DNA from: an uncultured Candidatus Melainabacteria bacterium
GTDB lineage: Bacteria; Cyanobacteriota; Vampirovibrionia; Gastranaerophilales; Gastranaerophilaceae
Direction: 5' to 3'
Length of the DNA stretch: 64,000 bases
Assembly (NCBI GenBank): GCA_949902595.1
Contig: CATLDC010000001.1
Location: 372,001-436,000 of the forward strand
The notes beneath the pieces are model-generated. The model was not told the DNA's origin. It was given only the letters and a program-made list of their open reading frames with translations, and did no database searches. Position numbers and translations under genes: made by a program. This document shows positions 12,933-55,133 of the stretch, in pieces; the stretch's first letter is position 1, and the number at the start of each line of letters is the position of its first letter.

Positions 12933-14609
12933 ATGAGAAGCGACAATATCAAAAAGGGAATAGCCAGAACTCCGCACAGGAGCCTTCTTATGGCAACAGG
13001 TGTATCACGAAAGAATATGGAATCCCCGTTCATCGGGATTGCAAGCTCGTTCTCTGATTTGGTTCCGGGACATATCGGAATGCGCGATTTGGAGCGCCAG
13101 ATTGAAAAAGGAATCCACTCAAACGGCGGTCAGGCGTTTATTTTTGGAGTGCCAGCCGTGTGCGACGGAATCGCGATGGGACATTCCGGCATGCAGTACT
13201 CGCTTCCATCCAGAGACCTGATTGCTGACTGTATCGAAACAGTTGCAAACGCTCACCAGCTCGACGGACTTGTCCTGCTTTCTAATTGCGACAAGATTAC
13301 CCCGGGAATGCTTATTGCAGCAGCAAGAATAAATATTCCGTCTATTATTGTGACAGCAGGCCCGATGCTCGACGGAGAGAGCAAGTGCGAAAAACTAACC
13401 ATGATTAAGGGAGCCTTTGAAGCTATTGGAAAGTACCGCAACGGCGAAATAACAGAAGAAAGACTTCTTGAACTTGAAGCCACTTCTTGTCCTTCTGCCG
13501 GTGCTTGCCAGGGACTTTATACCGCAAATACTATGGCTTGTCTTACAGAAGTTATGGGAATGAGCCTGCCATACTGCGCAACCTCTGCTGCTGTTTCTGC
13601 TGAAAAACGAAGAATCGCATTTGAAAGCGGTATGCAGATTGTAGATTGGGTAAGGGAGGATAAAAAGCCTCTGGATATCATAACCCGGGATTCTTTGAGG
13701 AATGCGATTATTGCGGATTTGGCAATGGGCGGGTCTACAAACTCGTTTTTGCATATTCTGGCGATTGCGAATGCGGCTGGTATTGGTGAAAGTTCTATGC
13801 TGGCTGACACCTCACCCCAACCCTCTCCTCAAGGAGAGGGAGTGAATTTGAGGGACTTCGAAGAACTTTCGCACAAAATCCACCAGTTTGTAAAACTCGA
13901 ACCGTCTTCTGATATTACTATGACAAAATTTCATCAGGCAGGCGGGATTCCGGCTGTGGTGGATGAACTTACAAGAAGCGTTCCTGAATTTAAAGGCGGA
14001 GAAATAAAAAATGTCTACGCTGACAAAACAATAATCCATGACTACTCTGAACCTTTCACAACCAAACCCGGACTCGGAATCCTCTACGGAAATATCGCTC
14101 CGGAAGGCTCGGTTATCAAAATTTCAGCGGTCGATGAGAGCTGCTACGAATTTGAAGGCACGGCCAAAACCTTTGATTCGGAAGAAGAAGCAATGCAAGC
14201 ACTTGAAAACGACTTAATAAAAGCCGGCGATGTCATTGTCATCCGCTACGAAGGTCCGAAAGGCGGGCCCGGCATGCGCGAAATGCTAGCTCCAACTTCG
14301 CTTCTTGTGGGCAAAGGACTCGGAACAAAGGCTGCGCTTATTACTGACGGTCGTTTTTCCGGCGGAACACGCGGAATCTGCGTGGGACATATCTGTCCGG
14401 AGGCAGCAAACGGCGGTGTAATCGCGCTTATAAAAGACGGTGACAAAATCAGAATCGATATTAACAAGCGCACGCTTGATTTGCTCGTGCCTCAAGAGGA
14501 ACTTGATGAACGAAGAAAAAATCTCAAGCCGTTTGTCTCAAGCGTAAAGGGCTATCTTGGCAAGTACTCGCGCACCGTTCAGGACGCAAGCCATGGAGCC
14601 ATTGTTTAG
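12933..14609 (+). CDS. ilvD: Dihydroxy-acid dehydratase, carrying an in-frame palindromic insert
   Basis: Iron-sulfur enzyme of branched-chain amino acid synthesis: dihydroxyisovalerate to ketoisovalerate. Motifs: [11 protein letters not shown] (the VPGH form found in E. coli-type enzymes, without the cysteine of the CNxH form), [31 protein letters not shown]. The length of 558 aa is usual. About 290 residues in, the protein reads [19 protein letters not shown]: the middle is encoded by a GC-rich palindrome (13811-13842) present elsewhere in the window, and the reading frame is kept. It sits in a loop between domains. No other ilv genes are nearby. Confidence 0.96.
13811..13842. repeat. Dispersed GC-rich palindrome, copy A (inside ilvD)
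   Basis: CTCACCCCAA followed by stem CCCTCTCC (13821-13828), loop TCAA and GGAGAGGG (13833-13840). Translated in frame as [10 protein letters not shown]. Reverse orientation relative to copies B, C, D and E. Confidence 0.85.
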
Positions 14610-16059: not shown

Positions 16060-16092
16060 CTCCCTCTCCTTGAGGAGAGGGGTTGGGGTGAG
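16060..16092. repeat. Dispersed GC-rich palindrome, copy B (intergenic)
   Basis: CTCCCTCTCC, loop TTGA, GGAGAGGG and the tail GTTGGGGTGAG. The best-preserved intergenic copy. Confidence 0.85.
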
Positions 16093-16123
16093 GTGTCAAC
16101 CAGCCCCGAATGATTCATTTAGA

Positions 16124-32082: not shown

Positions 32083-32117
32083 TATCGGCATTTTTTTCAA
32101 AAACTTTAGGATTTTAG
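32083..32117 (-). repeat. 35-bp promoter/leader repeat, copy 1
   Basis: Identical over 35 bp to 49650-49684. On the minus strand it begins with a TAAAAT -10-like box and continues into a leader containing GAAAAAAATGCCGATA. The distance to the HLR1 repeat is also identical in both copies. Confidence 0.9.
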
Positions 32118-32125
32118 ACTAAACT

Positions 32126-32143
32126 TTTACAATTGTTTACAAT
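32126..32143. promoter_or_regulatory. HLR1-like direct repeat
   Basis: TTTACAAT TG TTTACAAT: both halves are perfect. It sits where a -35 box would be relative to TAAAAT (32111-32116), as expected for an activator-dependent promoter. Confidence 0.55.
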
Positions 32144-35922: not shown

Positions 35923-38547
35923 TTATAACTCGTTTAAATTCTCGCTAAGAAATCTGACTCTTGTTATATCGAAAATTTGGTTTTCATTCACAAGTTTCAT
36001 CAAATCATCCGCCCTCAAGGCAGGAATGTCAGACCCTTGACCGGTTTTTAGGCATATGAACAGACTGTCATCTTCAAATCTGTGTGTTCCGATAGATTTC
36101 TTAAAATCTGTTGTTTTTTCAAAACCTTTTTTGTTTTTCTTTGTGATTAAAATCTCATCACAAGATAAAACCTTATCTATATCATACCGGAATTTTTCAA
36201 AATTGTAAAGCATATTCTGATTTGACTTCAAATACGGCTTTATCCTGTATTCAGCCCAATGAGCCGCAATGTCTACGGCTGTTGCGTACCTCTCAACCTG
36301 CTTAACCCCCACAATTTTCGCCCCTTCCGGAAGCTTAGGATTAATTATGTCACGCACCTCGTCACAGGTCAGATTATCATAAATCTCAATATCAACAAGC
36401 TCGCCTTCTGATTCTGCAAACAGCGGAAGCGCAATCCCCATTGAGACCTTCATAGTAGGGTTGAACCCGAGCGTAAACGCCATATTTAAACCGGTTCTTG
36501 CCAAAACCTTGTGGAAAGTTCCCTGCCAGTCAAGGTGCGAAAAATACCTCAGCAACCCTTTTTTCGTCACCTTAAGCCTGTACCTGTAAACAGGTATGTT
36601 CGGGTCAACATGCGCCCTTGTCGGGTCGGCAGGCTCTTTGTTAAGCACCTTCTGCGCCTCATCAGACGCGGTATACGGCTTTGCCATAACCTTGTGTGTC
36701 CTCAAAGACGGGCAAACCCCGCAGCTTACGCACTTGTTCTCGCAGGTTGGCTGGTGGTTGAACTCGCAGCCCTGCGCAAACGCTTCTTTGTATTCCTGCT
36801 GAAGCCATAATTTTTTCAGCCCGACATTGATGAAATCCCACGGAAGCTCATCATCAAGTCCGTATTCTTTTTTAGCCAGCTCTTCAAGTGAGAACCCGCA
36901 TTCTTCTGCTGTTTCACGCCATACGTTTTTGTCGAAATATTCGCCCCACGCATCAAGATAGCAGCCTTTTTTGTAGAGTGCTTCTATGTATTTACAGAGG
37001 CTGGAATCCCCACGTGTAAGCACTGCCTCGATTTGGGAGACAAACTTTTCGTGGTAATTAATCTTCAAGCCCTTGATGTGTTTTGTTTTTTCTTTGAGGT
37101 AATTAATATGTTCTGTGACTTCGTCTAAATCCATTTGAGGGCACCACTGGAACGGCGTAAACGGTTTTGGAACAAATATTGAGAGTGTGCAGGTTATTTC
37201 AAACCCGTGGTTCAAGCCTTTTTCGCGTTTGATTAGTTTTGAGCGGTACTTGATTTTGTTCAGAAGCTCCGCCATCTCGTCCATGTCTTCGAGGGTTTCG
37301 GTTGGAAGCCCTGCAATAAAGTAGAACTTAATCTTTGACCAGCCGTTTTCGTAAAGCGTCAAAGCCGCGTTAATAATCTGTTCTTCTGAAATATTTTTCT
37401 TGATAACGTTGCGCAGGCGCTGGCTTCCGGCTTCCGGCGCAAGTGTCATCGCGGATTTTCGGATTGATTGAACAAGGTTTGCAAGTTCGAGGTTGAATCC
37501 GTCAATACGCTGGCTCGGGAGCGACACGGAGATTTTGCGTTTGTTAAAATCAACAGCAAGCTCCTTTATTACCTCTCTGATATTGGAATAATCGTTTGAA
37601 GAGAGAGAAAGCAGCGAATACTCGTCATATCCGGTGTTATCAACGAGTTTTTTAGTAATTTTTATTATGTCTTCTGCTTCGCGTTCTCTAACCGGCAGCG
37701 TTACGTGACCCGGCTGGCAGAATCTGCACATGCGTCCGCACCCGCGGCGGATTTCAACGATTGCTCTATCATGGACGGAGCTTGAGAACGGGATTGGATA
37801 GGAGGTTGAAGCGTAGTCTGTGATAAGGGGGGCAATGCGTTTTTCAACGCTGCGTACCTCGCCGGTTGACCCCTCACCCCCGACCCCTCTCCCACAAGGG
37901 GCGAGGGGAGCCATTGCGCTCCAACATCCCTTGATTTCGCATAATTTTTCAATTCTTTCTTTTCTCGGAAGTCCTTTTGTTTTTTCTAAAACCTCGCAAA
38001 CTTCCACCATCATTTCTTCGCCGTCTCCAATACAGAAAACGTCAATAAAATCAGCCATTGGAAGCGGATTGAACGTACAAGGACCGCCTGCAAGAACAAT
38101 CGGCTCTTCATCCCGTCTCTCGTCGTTTCTTACAGTAATTCCCGACATCTCAAGCATTTTCAAAACAGTAGGATAAGAAAGCTCGTACTGGAGCGAAAAT
38201 CCAACCCCATCAAAATCTTTAAGCGCTCTTTTCGACTCCACACCATACAAAAACTCCGGCTTAAAATCCGGCTCCGGCGCATAAGCTCTGTCCGCCATCA
38301 GGGGGTAAATGTATTGGTCTGGATTATCACTACTAATCGGGCGTTTGTATGCATTCACCCTGTCATAAATTATTCTAACCCCTAAGTTGCTTATCCCGAT
38401 TTCATACTTATCAGGAAAAACAAACGCAAATCTGACTTTTGCAGAGTCAAAATCTTTATTATATGACAAAAACTCCCCCCCCACGTACTGGTAGGGTTTT
38501 GTGGCTTTGAATAAAGCTTCGTGCTGATCTCTAAAAAAACAATTCAT
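35923..38547 (-). CDS. B12-type radical SAM protein fused to DUF2344, with palindromic insert
   Basis: 874 aa. The first ~600 residues are the TIGR03960-type radical SAM family: KYEIGISNLGVRIIYD, AGGPCTFNPLPMADF and cluster motif CGRMCRFCQPGH (C-x3-C-x2-C, about residue 270). The last ~230 residues are the TIGR03936/DUF2344 partner domain (YRLKVTKKGLLRYFSHLD, FTLGFNPTMKVSMGIALPL). A cysteine cluster lies between (CENKCVSCGVCPS). Its substrate is unknown; it is typically linked to RNase E/G. Around residue 218 the protein reads APLAPCGRGVGGEGS, encoded by palindrome copy C and kept in frame. It lies 19 bp upstream of rne in one operon. Confidence 0.9.
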   Translation of the reverse strand: MNCFFRDQHEALFKATKPYQYVGGEFLSYNKDFDSAKVRFAFVFPDKYEIGISNLGVRIIYDRVNAYKRPISSDNPDQYIYPLMADRAYAPEPDFKPEFLYGVESKRALKDFDGVGFSLQYELSYPTVLKMLEMSGITVRNDERRDEEPIVLAGGPCTFNPLPMADFIDVFCIGDGEEMMVEVCEVLEKTKGLPRKERIEKLCEIKGCWSAMAPLAPCGRGVGGEGSTGEVRSVEKRIAPLITDYASTSYPIPFSSSVHDRAIVEIRRGCGRMCRFCQPGHVTLPVREREAEDIIKITKKLVDNTGYDEYSLLSLSSNDYSNIREVIKELAVDFNKRKISVSLPSQRIDGFNLELANLVQSIRKSAMTLAPEAGSQRLRNVIKKNISEEQIINAALTLYENGWSKIKFYFIAGLPTETLEDMDEMAELLNKIKYRSKLIKREKGLNHGFEITCTLSIFVPKPFTPFQWCPQMDLDEVTEHINYLKEKTKHIKGLKINYHEKFVSQIEAVLTRGDSSLCKYIEALYKKGCYLDAWGEYFDKNVWRETAEECGFSLEELAKKEYGLDDELPWDFINVGLKKLWLQQEYKEAFAQGCEFNHQPTCENKCVSCGVCPSLRTHKVMAKPYTASDEAQKVLNKEPADPTRAHVDPNIPVYRYRLKVTKKGLLRYFSHLDWQGTFHKVLARTGLNMAFTLGFNPTMKVSMGIALPLFAESEGELVDIEIYDNLTCDEVRDIINPKLPEGAKIVGVKQVERYATAVDIAAHWAEYRIKPYLKSNQNMLYNFEKFRYDIDKVLSCDEILITKKNKKGFEKTTDFKKSIGTHRFEDDSLFICLKTGQGSDIPALRADDLMKLVNENQIFDITRVRFLSENLNEL
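37871..37910. repeat. Dispersed GC-rich palindrome, copy C (inside the radical SAM gene)
   Basis: CCCTCACCCCCGA, then CCCCTCTCCC, loop ACAA and GGGGCGAGGGG. One mismatch in the stem. Read in frame on the minus strand as APLAPCGRGVGGEGS. Confidence 0.8.
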
Positions 38548-41007: not shown

Positions 41008-41084
41008 TTATATTTCTCCAATTTGTTTTTTCTTGATTATACCATGAAAGTTTTTTCGCGCGGACTCCCTCCCTTTCTATGATA

Positions 41085-41104
41085 AACTTACAAGCTTGTA
41101 AGTT
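41085..41104. promoter_or_regulatory. 20-bp perfect palindrome upstream of glyS
   Basis: Centred on AAGCTT within ACTTACAAGCTTGTAAGT. It lies about 45 bp upstream of the glyS -10 box; a symmetric operator is one possibility. Confidence 0.4.
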
Positions 41105-41125
41105 CGATTCCAAACTTGTTTTATT

Positions 41126-41152
41126 TACCCCGGGAGGGCTGGGGTGGGGGTG
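41126..41152. repeat. Degenerate or half copy of the GC-rich palindrome (copy F)
   Basis: CCCCGGGAGGGCTGGGGTGGGGG keeps the asymmetric tail (GGTTGGGGTGAGG-like), but the palindrome is reduced. Intergenic. Confidence 0.45.
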
Positions 41153-43371: not shown

Positions 43372-44058
43372 ATGTCAAAGAATATTTTTATAACAGCAAC
43401 CGGTACAGATGTTGGAAAAACTTATGTTTCAGCGCTTCTTGTAAAAAAAATGCGCGAATCAGGTTTTGATTGCGGGTACTTCAAACCCGTGTTGAGCGGT
43501 GTGGAAGAAAAAGACGGCAAACTTATCCAGAGTGACGCGAATTACGTTACCTCGACTGCCAAAATTCCCTCAAGCGCGGACGAGTGCGTTGCTTTTTGGT
43601 GGAAAGAAGCTGTCTCACCTCACCTTGCAGCAAAAAGAGCCGGTGAAAAGATTGATATAGAAAAAATAAAAGAACATTTTGAAAAATTACAGGCAAAATA
43701 CGATTATCTTCTAATCGAGGGCGCTGGCGGGATTACCTGTCCTTTGAGGCTTGATGAGGGCGAAAAATACTTGCTTAAGGATTTGATAAAGGATTTGGAT
43801 ACAAACATTGTTATAGTTGCAGACGGAGGGCTCGGAACGATAAATTCAACCCTGCTTACTGTTGAATACGCGCGTGCAAACGGGATTGGGATTGAAGGGA
43901 TTATTCTGAATAATTTCGAGTCTCAAAACTTCATGCACCAGGATAATTTGAAGCAGGTTGAGTACTTAACAGGAGTGAAAGTCGTTGCAACTGTTGGAAG
44001 AAATCAAAAAGACATCGAGCTTTTGGAGGAATTATGGACTGGCAAAAAGAAGATTTAA
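43372..44058 (+). CDS. bioD: Dethiobiotin synthetase
   Basis: ATP-dependent carboxylation/ring closure of DAPA to dethiobiotin. P-loop TATGTDVGKTYVSA (8-21), FKPVLSG, EGAGGITCPL. 228 aa. The start at ATG 43372 is chosen for GAGGGGG just upstream; the conserved IFITATGTDVGKT begins four residues later. It overlaps bioA by 25 bp. bioB and bioF are not in the window. Confidence 0.95.
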   Translation: MSKNIFITATGTDVGKTYVSALLVKKMRESGFDCGYFKPVLSGVEEKDGKLIQSDANYVTSTAKIPSSADECVAFWWKEAVSPHLAAKRAGEKIDIEKIKEHFEKLQAKYDYLLIEGAGGITCPLRLDEGEKYLLKDLIKDLDTNIVIVADGGLGTINSTLLTVEYARANGIGIEGIILNNFESQNFMHQDNLKQVEYLTGVKVVATVGRNQKDIELLEELWTGKKKI

Positions 44059-45437
44059 AATACATCTGGCACCCGTGTTCGCAGATGAAGGATTATGAAA
44101 CCCTACCGCCTATTGTAATCGAGCGCGGCGAAGGGATTAATCTCTATGATGTCAACGGAAAATGCTACAAAGATGTTATAAGCTCATGGTGGTGTAATCT
44201 TCTCGGTCACTGCAACCCGAGGATTAATGCGGCTGTAAAAAAACAGATTGACTCACTGGAGCACGTAATTTTTGCCAACTTCACCCACAAGCCTGCAATT
44301 ACGCTCTGTCAGGAGCTTATGAAGGTTATTCCGGAAGGTTTGTGCAAGTTCAATTTTGCGGACAACGGCTCTGCTGCGATTGAGATGGCTTTAAAGATGA
44401 GTTTTCAGTACCATTACCAGACCGGAAACCCACAGAAGAAACGCTTTATGGCACTTTCTGACGCGTATCATGGAGAAACTCTTGGTGCGCTTGCTGTTGG
44501 CGGGGTGGATTTGTATTCAGAGCTTTACAAGCCTTTGCTTCTGGATGTTATAAGGATTGACGCGCCGGATTGTTTCCGCTGTCCGTACGGGAAAAGGTGT
44601 GAAGGGCATTGCTCTTTCGCTCCCTCTCCTCAGGGAGAGGGTTGGGGTGAGGGGGCAACCTGCCACTGCGAGTGTTTTGAAAAAGCCGAAAAAACTTTTG
44701 CAAAACACGCTCACGAAGTCGCTGCAATCATTGTTGAGCCGCTGCTTCAAGGCTCTGCCGGCATGAAGGTTTATCCGCCTCTGTATCTAAAAAAACTGCG
44801 CGAGCTCTGTGATAAATACAATGTACACCTGATAGCTGACGAAATCGCAACAGGCTATGGAAGAACAGGGAAAATGTTTGCGTTCAATCATGCTGGCGTG
44901 AGCCCAGACATAATGTGTCTTTCAAAAGGGCTGACAGGCGGCTATATGCCTATGGCGATTGCTGTTACAACACAAAAGATTTATGACGCATTTTATGATG
45001 ATTACTTGAAGGGAAAAGCCTTCATGCATTCTCACACTTACGCAGGAAACCCGCTTGCCTGCTCTGCTGCAATCGAGGTGCTTAAGATTTTGAAAGACGA
45101 GCAGATAATCGAAAAAGCAAACAAGCGTGCGGTTTATTTCAATAAGATTATCAGAGAGAAATTCCTTCCGCTAGAAAATGTGGGTGAGGTGCGCTCAATC
45201 GGGCTTATAAACGCAATCGAGCTTGTAAAAAACAGAGAAACAAAAGAGCCTCTGGATTCTTCAAAAAGAACAGGATACCAGATTTACCAAAAGGCGCTCG
45301 AAAAGGGTGTTTTACTTCGTCCGCTCGGTGATGTGATTTACTTCAACCCGCCGTTGATTATTGAGGAGGAAGATATGGACTTTGTAACCGATGTTGCGCT
45401 TGCTTGTACAAAAGACATATTATGTGATATAATTTAG
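44034..45437 (+). CDS. bioA: Adenosylmethionine-8-amino-7-oxononanoate aminotransferase, carrying an in-frame palindromic insert
   Basis: PLP transaminase making DAPA from KAPA with SAM as amino donor. Motifs: IWHPCSQMKDYE, SSWWCNLLGHCNPRIN, DNGSAAIEMALKM, DAYHGETLGALAVGG, LIADEIATGYGRTGKMFA and the PLP lysine in CLSKGLTGGYMP. 467 aa, about 15 longer than usual. The extra residues SFAPSPQGEGWGEGAT come from palindrome copy D and sit between a cysteine-rich CPYGKRCEGHC and CHCECFEKAEK, with the frame intact. bioD precedes it with overlap. Confidence 0.96.
   Translation: MDWQKEDLKYIWHPCSQMKDYETLPPIVIERGEGINLYDVNGKCYKDVISSWWCNLLGHCNPRINAAVKKQIDSLEHVIFANFTHKPAITLCQELMKVIPEGLCKFNFADNGSAAIEMALKMSFQYHYQTGNPQKKRFMALSDAYHGETLGALAVGGVDLYSELYKPLLLDVIRIDAPDCFRCPYGKRCEGHCSFAPSPQGEGWGEGATCHCECFEKAEKTFAKHAHEVAAIIVEPLLQGSAGMKVYPPLYLKKLRELCDKYNVHLIADEIATGYGRTGKMFAFNHAGVSPDIMCLSKGLTGGYMPMAIAVTTQKIYDAFYDDYLKGKAFMHSHTYAGNPLACSAAIEVLKILKDEQIIEKANKRAVYFNKIIREKFLPLENVGEVRSIGLINAIELVKNRETKEPLDSSKRTGYQIYQKALEKGVLLRPLGDVIYFNPPLIIEEEDMDFVTDVALACTKDILCDII
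44620..44655. repeat. Dispersed GC-rich palindrome, copy D (inside bioA)
   Basis: Stem CCCTCTCC (44622-44629), loop TCAG, GGAGAGGG (44634-44641), then TTGGGGTGAGGGGG. Translated as PSPQGEGWGEG. Confidence 0.88.
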
Positions 45438-49649: not shown

Positions 49650-49684
49650 TATCGGCATTTTTTTCAAAAACTTTAGGATTTTAG
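49650..49684 (-). repeat. 35-bp promoter/leader repeat, copy 2
   Basis: Exact duplicate of 32083-32117, with TAAAAT at the same distance from an HLR1 array. Confidence 0.9.
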
Positions 49685-49692
49685 GATAAAGA

Positions 49693-49720
49693 TTTACAAT
49701 TCGTTACATTAATTTACAGC
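49693..49720. promoter_or_regulatory. Triple HLR1-like array
   Basis: TTTACAAT TC GTTACATT AA TTTACAGC: three half-sites at exact 10-bp periods; the first two form a perfect HLR1, the third is partial. It overlaps the 3' end of the 50701 gene. Confidence 0.55.
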
Positions 49721-54202: not shown

Positions 54203-54994
54203 ATGAAAATTCTTATTTCCAATGACGACGGGATTCTGTCCAATGGTATCCGCGCGCTTATTGAGGCTCTGGCTCCTTGCCACGACGTCTATGTAGTTGC
54301 GCCGGATAGAGAAAGAAGCGCAGCAGGACATTCGCTAACGCTTCATACCCCGCTAAGAGTGGAAGAAGTAGACCCGAAATACGGCGCAAAACGCTGCTGG
54401 ATGACAACCGGAACCCCGGGTGACTGCGTAAAACTTGCGATAAACGCAATTCTATCCGAAGAGGAAAAGCCTGACCTTGTCATCACAGGGATAAACCATG
54501 GGCCAAACCTCGGCGCTGATATACTTTATTCCGGAACCGTAAGCTGCGCAATGGAGGGCGCAATGATGGGGTATCCGAGTATCGCGACTTCGCTTGCAAG
54601 TATGAGAAATGAGTACGAGGATTTTCATTTTACGGCAGCTTTTATTGCGGAGCTGTTGAACAAGCTTGACACGTACAAGATTCCGCCAAAAACGATTCTG
54701 AACATCAATGTTCCCGGTTTGGAAAAAGAAGACATTGCGGGTATTGCAATAACCGAGCTTGGAAGCAGAATGTTTACAGACGCATACGAAAAAAGAATCG
54801 ACCCGCGTGGCAAGGTTTATTACTGGATGGCAGGTGAGCTAATTAACGAGCCTGACAATGCCTCAACAGACATTGCTGCTGTAAGGAATAACAAGATTTC
54901 CATAACCCCTGTGACTTATGAGATGACACGGGTTAATATTATGAAAGACCTTAGTGACTCGCTCTGCAACGAAAATGTTTGTGAGTGGTTTTAA
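54203..54994 (+). CDS. surE: 5'/3'-nucleotidase SurE
   Basis: Metal-dependent survival protein dephosphorylating nucleoside monophosphates. Motifs MKILISNDDGILSNGIRALI (metal Asp pair), APDRERSAAGHSLTL, TTGTPGDCVKLA and ITGINHGPNLGADILYSGTV. 263 aa. The start at ATG 54203 (an upstream in-frame TTG is ignored) has GAGGAC 6-7 nt before it. A palindrome (copy E) follows its stop by 6 bp. Confidence 0.96.
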   Translation: MKILISNDDGILSNGIRALIEALAPCHDVYVVAPDRERSAAGHSLTLHTPLRVEEVDPKYGAKRCWMTTGTPGDCVKLAINAILSEEEKPDLVITGINHGPNLGADILYSGTVSCAMEGAMMGYPSIATSLASMRNEYEDFHFTAAFIAELLNKLDTYKIPPKTILNINVPGLEKEDIAGIAITELGSRMFTDAYEKRIDPRGKVYYWMAGELINEPDNASTDIAAVRNNKISITPVTYEMTRVNIMKDLSDSLCNENVCEWF

Positions 54995-55000
54995 CATAAT

Positions 55001-55036
55001 TCCCTCGCCCTACGGGAGAGGGTTAGGGTGAGGGGG
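55001..55036. repeat. Dispersed GC-rich palindrome, copy E (after surE)
   Basis: CCCTCGCCC, TAC, GGGAGAGGG with one mismatch, tail GTTAGGGTGAGGGGG. It may also help terminate surE. Confidence 0.8.
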
Positions 55037-55133
55037 CGAATCAATTGTACTAGTCCTAATGTCTTATATATACTTTGCTAAAATTACACCAACCGATGAT
55101 TTACCGTTTTGGTTTCAGTGTAACTATATAGTT

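Follow-up and report, generated by a model that had tools for sequence, protein, structure and literature searches.

The bioA locus and motif copies in the window

The window, the whole 64,000-nucleotide stretch analyzed here, comes from the genome of a Gastranaerophilales gut bacterium (G000, 99.8% complete) and carries an intact bioA gene with a short G/C-rich motif lying in frame inside it. Further copies of the motif occur in two other protein-coding genes of the window and between genes, as listed below. Other genomes and individual loci are designated by G and L numbers, respectively; all genomes compared were assemblies, mostly MAGs.

44034..45437, + strand: bioA, 467 aa, complete
44620..44661, + strand: motif core inside bioA, 42 nt
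12933..14609, + strand: ilvD, 558 aa, intact
13801..13842, − strand: motif copy in frame inside ilvD, which lies on the + strand; read as 13 residues
35923..38547, − strand: TIGR03960/TIGR03936 radical SAM gene, 874 aa, intact
37866..37909, − strand: diverged copy inside the TIGR03960 B12-binding radical SAM gene, in frame; read as APLAPCGRGVGGEGSTGE
16060..16104, + strand: intergenic copy
55001..55042, + strand: intergenic copy just 3ʹ of an ORF ending at 54994
41064..41150, + strand: diverged intergenic relative, CTCCCTCCC..GGGAGGGCTGGGGTGGGGG, with a long loop

A search of the window with the hairpin pattern gave six matches, against 0.00 in shuffles. A sequence-only reading of this DNA had placed copies in ilvD, in a radical SAM gene, and at three intergenic positions, and all of these were located, those at 41064–41150 and 37866–37909 in diverged form. 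The window also holds a 59-nt intergenic repeat at 32083–32141 and 49650–49708 (90% identity; TATCGGCATTTTTTTCAAAAACTTTAGG...TTTACA), and AT-rich stretches similar to it flank the composite motif copies at L005 and L007.

The BioA protein is otherwise complete, as that reading had proposed: the 467-aa ORF is uninterrupted and scores 553 bits against the NCBIfam profile TIGR00508, for which the cut-off is 405. The insert sits between the Cys-rich stretches CFRCPYGK.. and CHCECF. At the DNA level, the palindrome proper spans 44622–44641 with GGGTTGGGGTGAGG directly 3ʹ of it; the core comprises a hairpin, CCCTCTCC-TCAG-GGAGAGGG, followed by the TTGGGGTGAGGGGGCAACC strand (hairpin, then TTGGGGTGAGGG). 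Single-strand folding predicted an 8-bp duplex hairpin for this copy. Translation of the bioA copy would give PSPQGEGWGEGAT, which includes PSPQGEGWGEG. The extra segment had been put at 16 residues; an insert is indeed present, but G000 BioA is 18–22 residues longer than insert-free orthologues (467 versus 445–449 aa), and the excess departs from 16 since the sequence flanking the insert has been altered as well. In an AlphaFold2 model (20 sequences, mean pLDDT 72), the insert region, residues 180–211, is modeled as coil, and its pLDDT stays under 50. BioA has another site prone to insertion, FAFDHAG^VSPD, at which two species, G013 (L049) and G067 (L313), have 15–18 additional residues.

The motif matches a known intrastrand triplex motif

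The G000 genome contains 43 copies of the motif (at most three mismatches to a 20-nt half), while a reversed-pattern control gave none. Column conservation over the 43 copies has sharp edges and delimits a 42-nt core, CCCCCTCTCC-loop-GGAGAGGGTTGGGGTGAGGGGTCAACC. Judged by its make-up, this is the known G/C-rich intrastrand triplex motif (TM; potential intrastrand triplex elements), reported by Holder et al. 2015 from more than 260 bacterial genomes, cyanobacteria among them, in which a hairpin is joined through a few spacer nucleotides, TTA or CCG in E. coli, to a third strand of purines (PMC4666352). The layout is shared and the letters are nearly identical, CCCTC[T/G]CC(C)-loop-GGGAGAGGG-NNN-GGGTGAGGG, and our core logo agrees with the consensus of Table 1 in that paper, CCCTC[T/G]CCC..GGGAGAGGG..GGGTGAGGG. 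Inverted pairs and presence in many bacteria, including cyanobacteria, are further likenesses. Differences lie in the inner stem, here often T-A (CCCTCTCCT..GGAGAGGG), and in the second loop, here mostly TTG or CTG.

Applying a triad rule of C-G-G or T-A-A/T, we found that 39 of 41 distinct cores had at least seven of eight stem pairs together with at least seven of eight third-strand triads, against 0 of 20,000 shuffles; by these sequence rules the core is predicted to be able to form an intrastrand triplex. Across 84,980 species genomes, the exact core pattern was found in Gammaproteobacteria, Bacteroidota, Verrucomicrobia, Chloroflexi, cyanobacteria, and Candidatus Gastranaerophilales.

Location sets the present copies apart. 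In E. coli K-12 the TM copies are always intergenic (PMC4666352), whereas here about a fifth lie in frame inside proteins and new copies are still arriving. Restriction to intergenic DNA, a habit of the motif in E. coli and no part of its definition, does not hold in G000, where 8 of the 43 copies are in frame. The sequence-only reading is refined in this respect: the motif DNA has already been described, and what is new is its occurrence inside proteins. Nothing relevant was found in the literature on a PSPLGEGWGEG peptide or on palindromic repeats in Gastranaerophilales.

In-frame copies in conserved proteins

The eight in-frame copies of G000 lie in BioA, IlvD, LipA, asparaginase II, an MBL-fold hydrolase, an LD-carboxypeptidase of family S66, FliO, and an AsmA-like protein. 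All of these hosts are recognized by Pfam except the AsmA-like protein, which is 808 aa long. The more diverged copy in the TIGR03960 radical SAM protein is a ninth, and another copy forms the C-terminal end of an MMPL/SecDF-like protein. The encoded peptides differ from one another because strands and frames differ, and the use of different frames means that it is the DNA, and not a peptide, that spreads. A specially open-framed core (five of six frames open) was considered and rejected: 54% of frames were open against a background of 55%, and only 7 of the 43 copies had five or more open frames. As frame openness is ordinary, it is no mark of a core that evolved for proteins.

Empty sites in relatives bear out the proposal that a dispersed palindrome has been tolerated as an in-frame insertion. 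Insert-free orthologues were found for the MBL hydrolase (GIRPNPDVKVVM versus GIRPDMGQTLTPTLSLGEGARTQLVM, +14 aa), for IlvD (GIDVTLKDF versus a stretch of 27 residues), and for LipA. Several host sites carry other inserts in relatives. The S66 site holds a different insert in each of G065, G068, and G102 and is empty in G054; relatives carry other inserts at the radical SAM site, with up to two motifs, and at the asparaginase site, where they reach 135 aa (G044). That 135-aa in-frame insert (L145) consists of several different repeats and lies at the position of the G000 motif. In IlvD, GVNAGVN-type tandem repeats stand in G019, G051, G068, and G044 (L118–L121) where G000 has the motif. The AsmA-like loop and IlvD vary among relatives even without the motif, which counts against the insertion reading at these two sites.

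Of 33 copies examined in five other genomes of the genus, 8 were in frame, all inside Pfam proteins, for example LpxK, CoaBC/DFP, RmlD, and an ABC ATPase; these 33 copies derive from the 30 best-matching loci and are a non-random sample. The ABC ATPase copy occupies an identical site in two species. Outside the genus, 87 copies yielded seven candidate ORFs, one of which was a genus BioA and one other had Pfam support, so that in-frame copies look rare there. The latter is an in-frame copy in an N6 DNA methylase of Methylomonas sp. LW13 (L223), and on this sequence evidence the motif also enters genes outside Gastranaerophilales.

The BioA site across the genus

Alignment of BioA with its relatives gave 34 of 55 genus proteins with a short loop, CPYGKCRDNCNCECF or similar, and no insert, and the insert was absent from every outgroup BioA compared. 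The motif in the window's orientation was present in two of the 55, G000 and G038, and in the opposite orientation in nine (12 residues), of which G054 retains a trimmed remnant and G010 has a longer insert. The remaining ten carry other or decayed inserts in the same place. All genus BioA inserts keep the reading frame. On a BioA tree computed without the loop region, in which many inner branches are weak, G000 and G038 form one clade with 99% support; accounting for the four insert states takes at least 12 changes, and accounting for presence or absence alone takes eight. With at least 12 state changes, the BioA site has been repeatedly hit or remodeled. The empty sites expected by the sequence-only reading are real, and the bioA site is a repeatedly altered hot spot rather than a single clean insertion. 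The two orientations may have arisen either by reversal in place or by independent insertion.

These distributions bear on whether the segment is instead a protein loop selected for itself, for instance around the cysteines, with a merely secondary resemblance to the repeat. The Cys-rich flanks are conserved, and a longer loop starting KxCxGH is common to much of one clade, as such selection would have it. Against this, most genus BioAs do without the loop, those that have it elsewhere show unrelated letters or the reversed motif, and in other proteins the same motif DNA is read as different peptides. We regard a self-selected loop as very improbable.

Recent gains and their junctions

Two copies were gained recently. 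LipA is 13 aa longer in G000 only and lacks the insert in G038 and five further relatives; the DNA flanking lipA is nearly identical in G000 and G038. Between ffh and pth, about 65 nt are present in G000 only and absent in G038 and eight other relatives (a count that leaves out G068), in which the ffh stop and the pth start are 0–24 nt apart, mostly 0–3 nt. Movement of the motif is recent, as neither G038, the nearest species, nor any other relative read has the LipA or ffh-pth copy.

Comparison of G000 with G038 also revealed how these sites changed. In lipA, 66 nt replace 27; at L020, ~64 nt replace ~6; and at ffh-pth, ~65 nt replace 1. None of the three sites has a target duplication. The filler beyond the core matched no flank of any other copy, and carriage of donor flanks to these sites was rejected on that basis. 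Because the junctions are not clean, there is no target duplication, and no sequence outside the core is shared, the copies may have entered otherwise than as discrete units.

Junctions of this kind raise the possibility of spread without a transposase, whereby the hairpin or triplex would stall replication and template switching or error-prone repair would make the copies. Such a process would explain both the replacement of flanks and the missing target duplications; the presence of non-homologous filler and the replacement of bases at the three recent sites, filler unlike the flanks of other copies, and the instability of TM loci in E. coli (PMC4666352) are all in keeping with it. Direct copying events were not observed, however, three junctions are few for such a model, and duplications would likewise be missing if a transposase, of the HUH or another type, acted in trans. 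We consider this route a possibility to be taken seriously, though not the probable one.

Search for a mobilizing enzyme

A RAYT (TnpA_REP) transposase, present here or formerly, would be the expected mover if the motif were a REP or REPIN, and the sequence-only reading had named such an enzyme as one to look for. Resemblance to REPs is plain: the copies are small palindromes, single and in inverted pairs, both genic and intergenic. Y1_Tnp (RAYT) genes, moreover, are present in 36 of 65 genus genomes. Yet none was found above the Pfam threshold in G000 or in G038, the genomes with the most copies and with recent gains, and TM copy number was independent of RAYT number (Spearman 0.13, p 0.34, 58 genomes). 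At eight RAYT loci read, no full TM adjoined the gene. Only one TM adjoins a RAYT, and the gene in question is degraded and has GGTAGGGTG ends of its own. The core is without a GTAG or CGTC tag. Movement of the motif by a RAYT is, on this evidence, unlikely, and a resident RAYT was rejected as the mobilizer, none having been found in G000 and no association in the genus.

The degraded RAYT gene (L063, 1390–2090) is flanked by GGTAGGGTG inverted repeats, which suggests that the RAYTs of the genus have GTAG-type repeats of their own. A further observation concerns a composite unit of ~300 bp at L009 (~1380–1690) and L021 (G000 C1:46.4 kb and C3:171.5 kb), in which near-perfect terminal palindromes, ATGTAACACAATACCTATTGTGTTACATT, enclose two triplex motifs in inverted order; its sequence is suggestive of a composite MITE or a cassette of REPIN type.

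Phage carriage was also rejected, with a single 19-nt partial match among 50,697 phage records. Plasmid matches occurred in 117 records; on those with annotation, none of the 19 best matches coincided with an annotated gene. The mobilizer could be a transposase acting in trans, a recently lost transposase, or template switching at hairpin or triplex DNA.

Discussion

Short palindromes inside reading frames have precedents. Rickettsia palindromic elements (RPE) were described by Ogata et al. 2000 and reviewed in PMC2229807; the RPE-1 type is 105–146 bp long, has terminal inverted repeats, and is limited to Rickettsia (PMC2229807). Both systems comprise dispersed palindromes that lie in frame in conserved proteins as well as between genes and appear as tolerated extra loops, and the parallel drawn by the sequence-only reading holds in the sense that the motif would work like an RPE. 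It is not one: the core here is 42 nt, adds a third strand to the hairpin, occurs across phyla, and lacks the size and repeat features of RPE-1. Intragenic GTAG/CGTC REPs, palindromes of 20–40 nt, are sometimes found in ORFs, in one case in recB of two Xanthomonas at about the same site (Di Nocera et al. 2013, PMC3733652). The motif resembles them in being a short palindrome sometimes inside ORFs and differs in core conservation, which includes no GTAG or CGTC tag, and in that no RAYT was found in G000. REPINs, in which two REPs in inverted order form the mobile unit (Bertels & Rainey 2011, PMC3116915), find a likeness in the inverted pairs at some intergenic copies (L009, L021, L005–L007); the genic copies, in contrast, are single, with no pair in bioA, ilvD, or lipA, and are not associated with a RAYT.

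Alongside the observed copies, empty sites, recent gains, recurrence, and intact frames, we think it very probable that the bioA segment represents one copy of a small mobile motif, non-autonomous, that arrives repeatedly and is translated as a spacer where it falls in genes. This Gastranaerophilales genus would still be acquiring new copies, in either orientation. Intergenic copies would persist freely, and genic copies, as far as the loci read here go, would be seen only where they are in frame, stop-free, and within length-tolerant loops. There they would act as Pro/Gly/Glu-rich spacers of 13–18 residues without a common peptide function. Loops of BioA, the radical SAM protein, LD-carboxypeptidase, asparaginase, and IlvD would be hit or remodeled repeatedly and then decay by in-frame deletion. 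Purifying selection would account for the in-frame pattern, and the proteins hosting the motif presumably remain active. Mobilization would probably occur in trans or via DNA repair or replication, and not through a resident RAYT. A bolder extension, which we hold to be rather doubtful, is that a pan-bacterial triplex-forming motif acts as a transposase-free mobile element through template switching in replication or repair, generating length variation of housekeeping enzymes at recurrent sites in this gut lineage.

A triplex motif long known as an intergenic repeat is here caught in recent movement, at lipA and ffh-pth, and its in-frame entries into conserved enzymes often fall in the same loop. 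Its filled and empty sites are a tractable set from which its mode of movement might be worked out, and it adds to Rickettsia a second, unrelated system in which to study the effects of palindromic inserts on proteins. In this Gastranaerophilales gut bacterium, a small mobile piece of DNA would thus be reshaping at least nine conserved proteins, BioA included.
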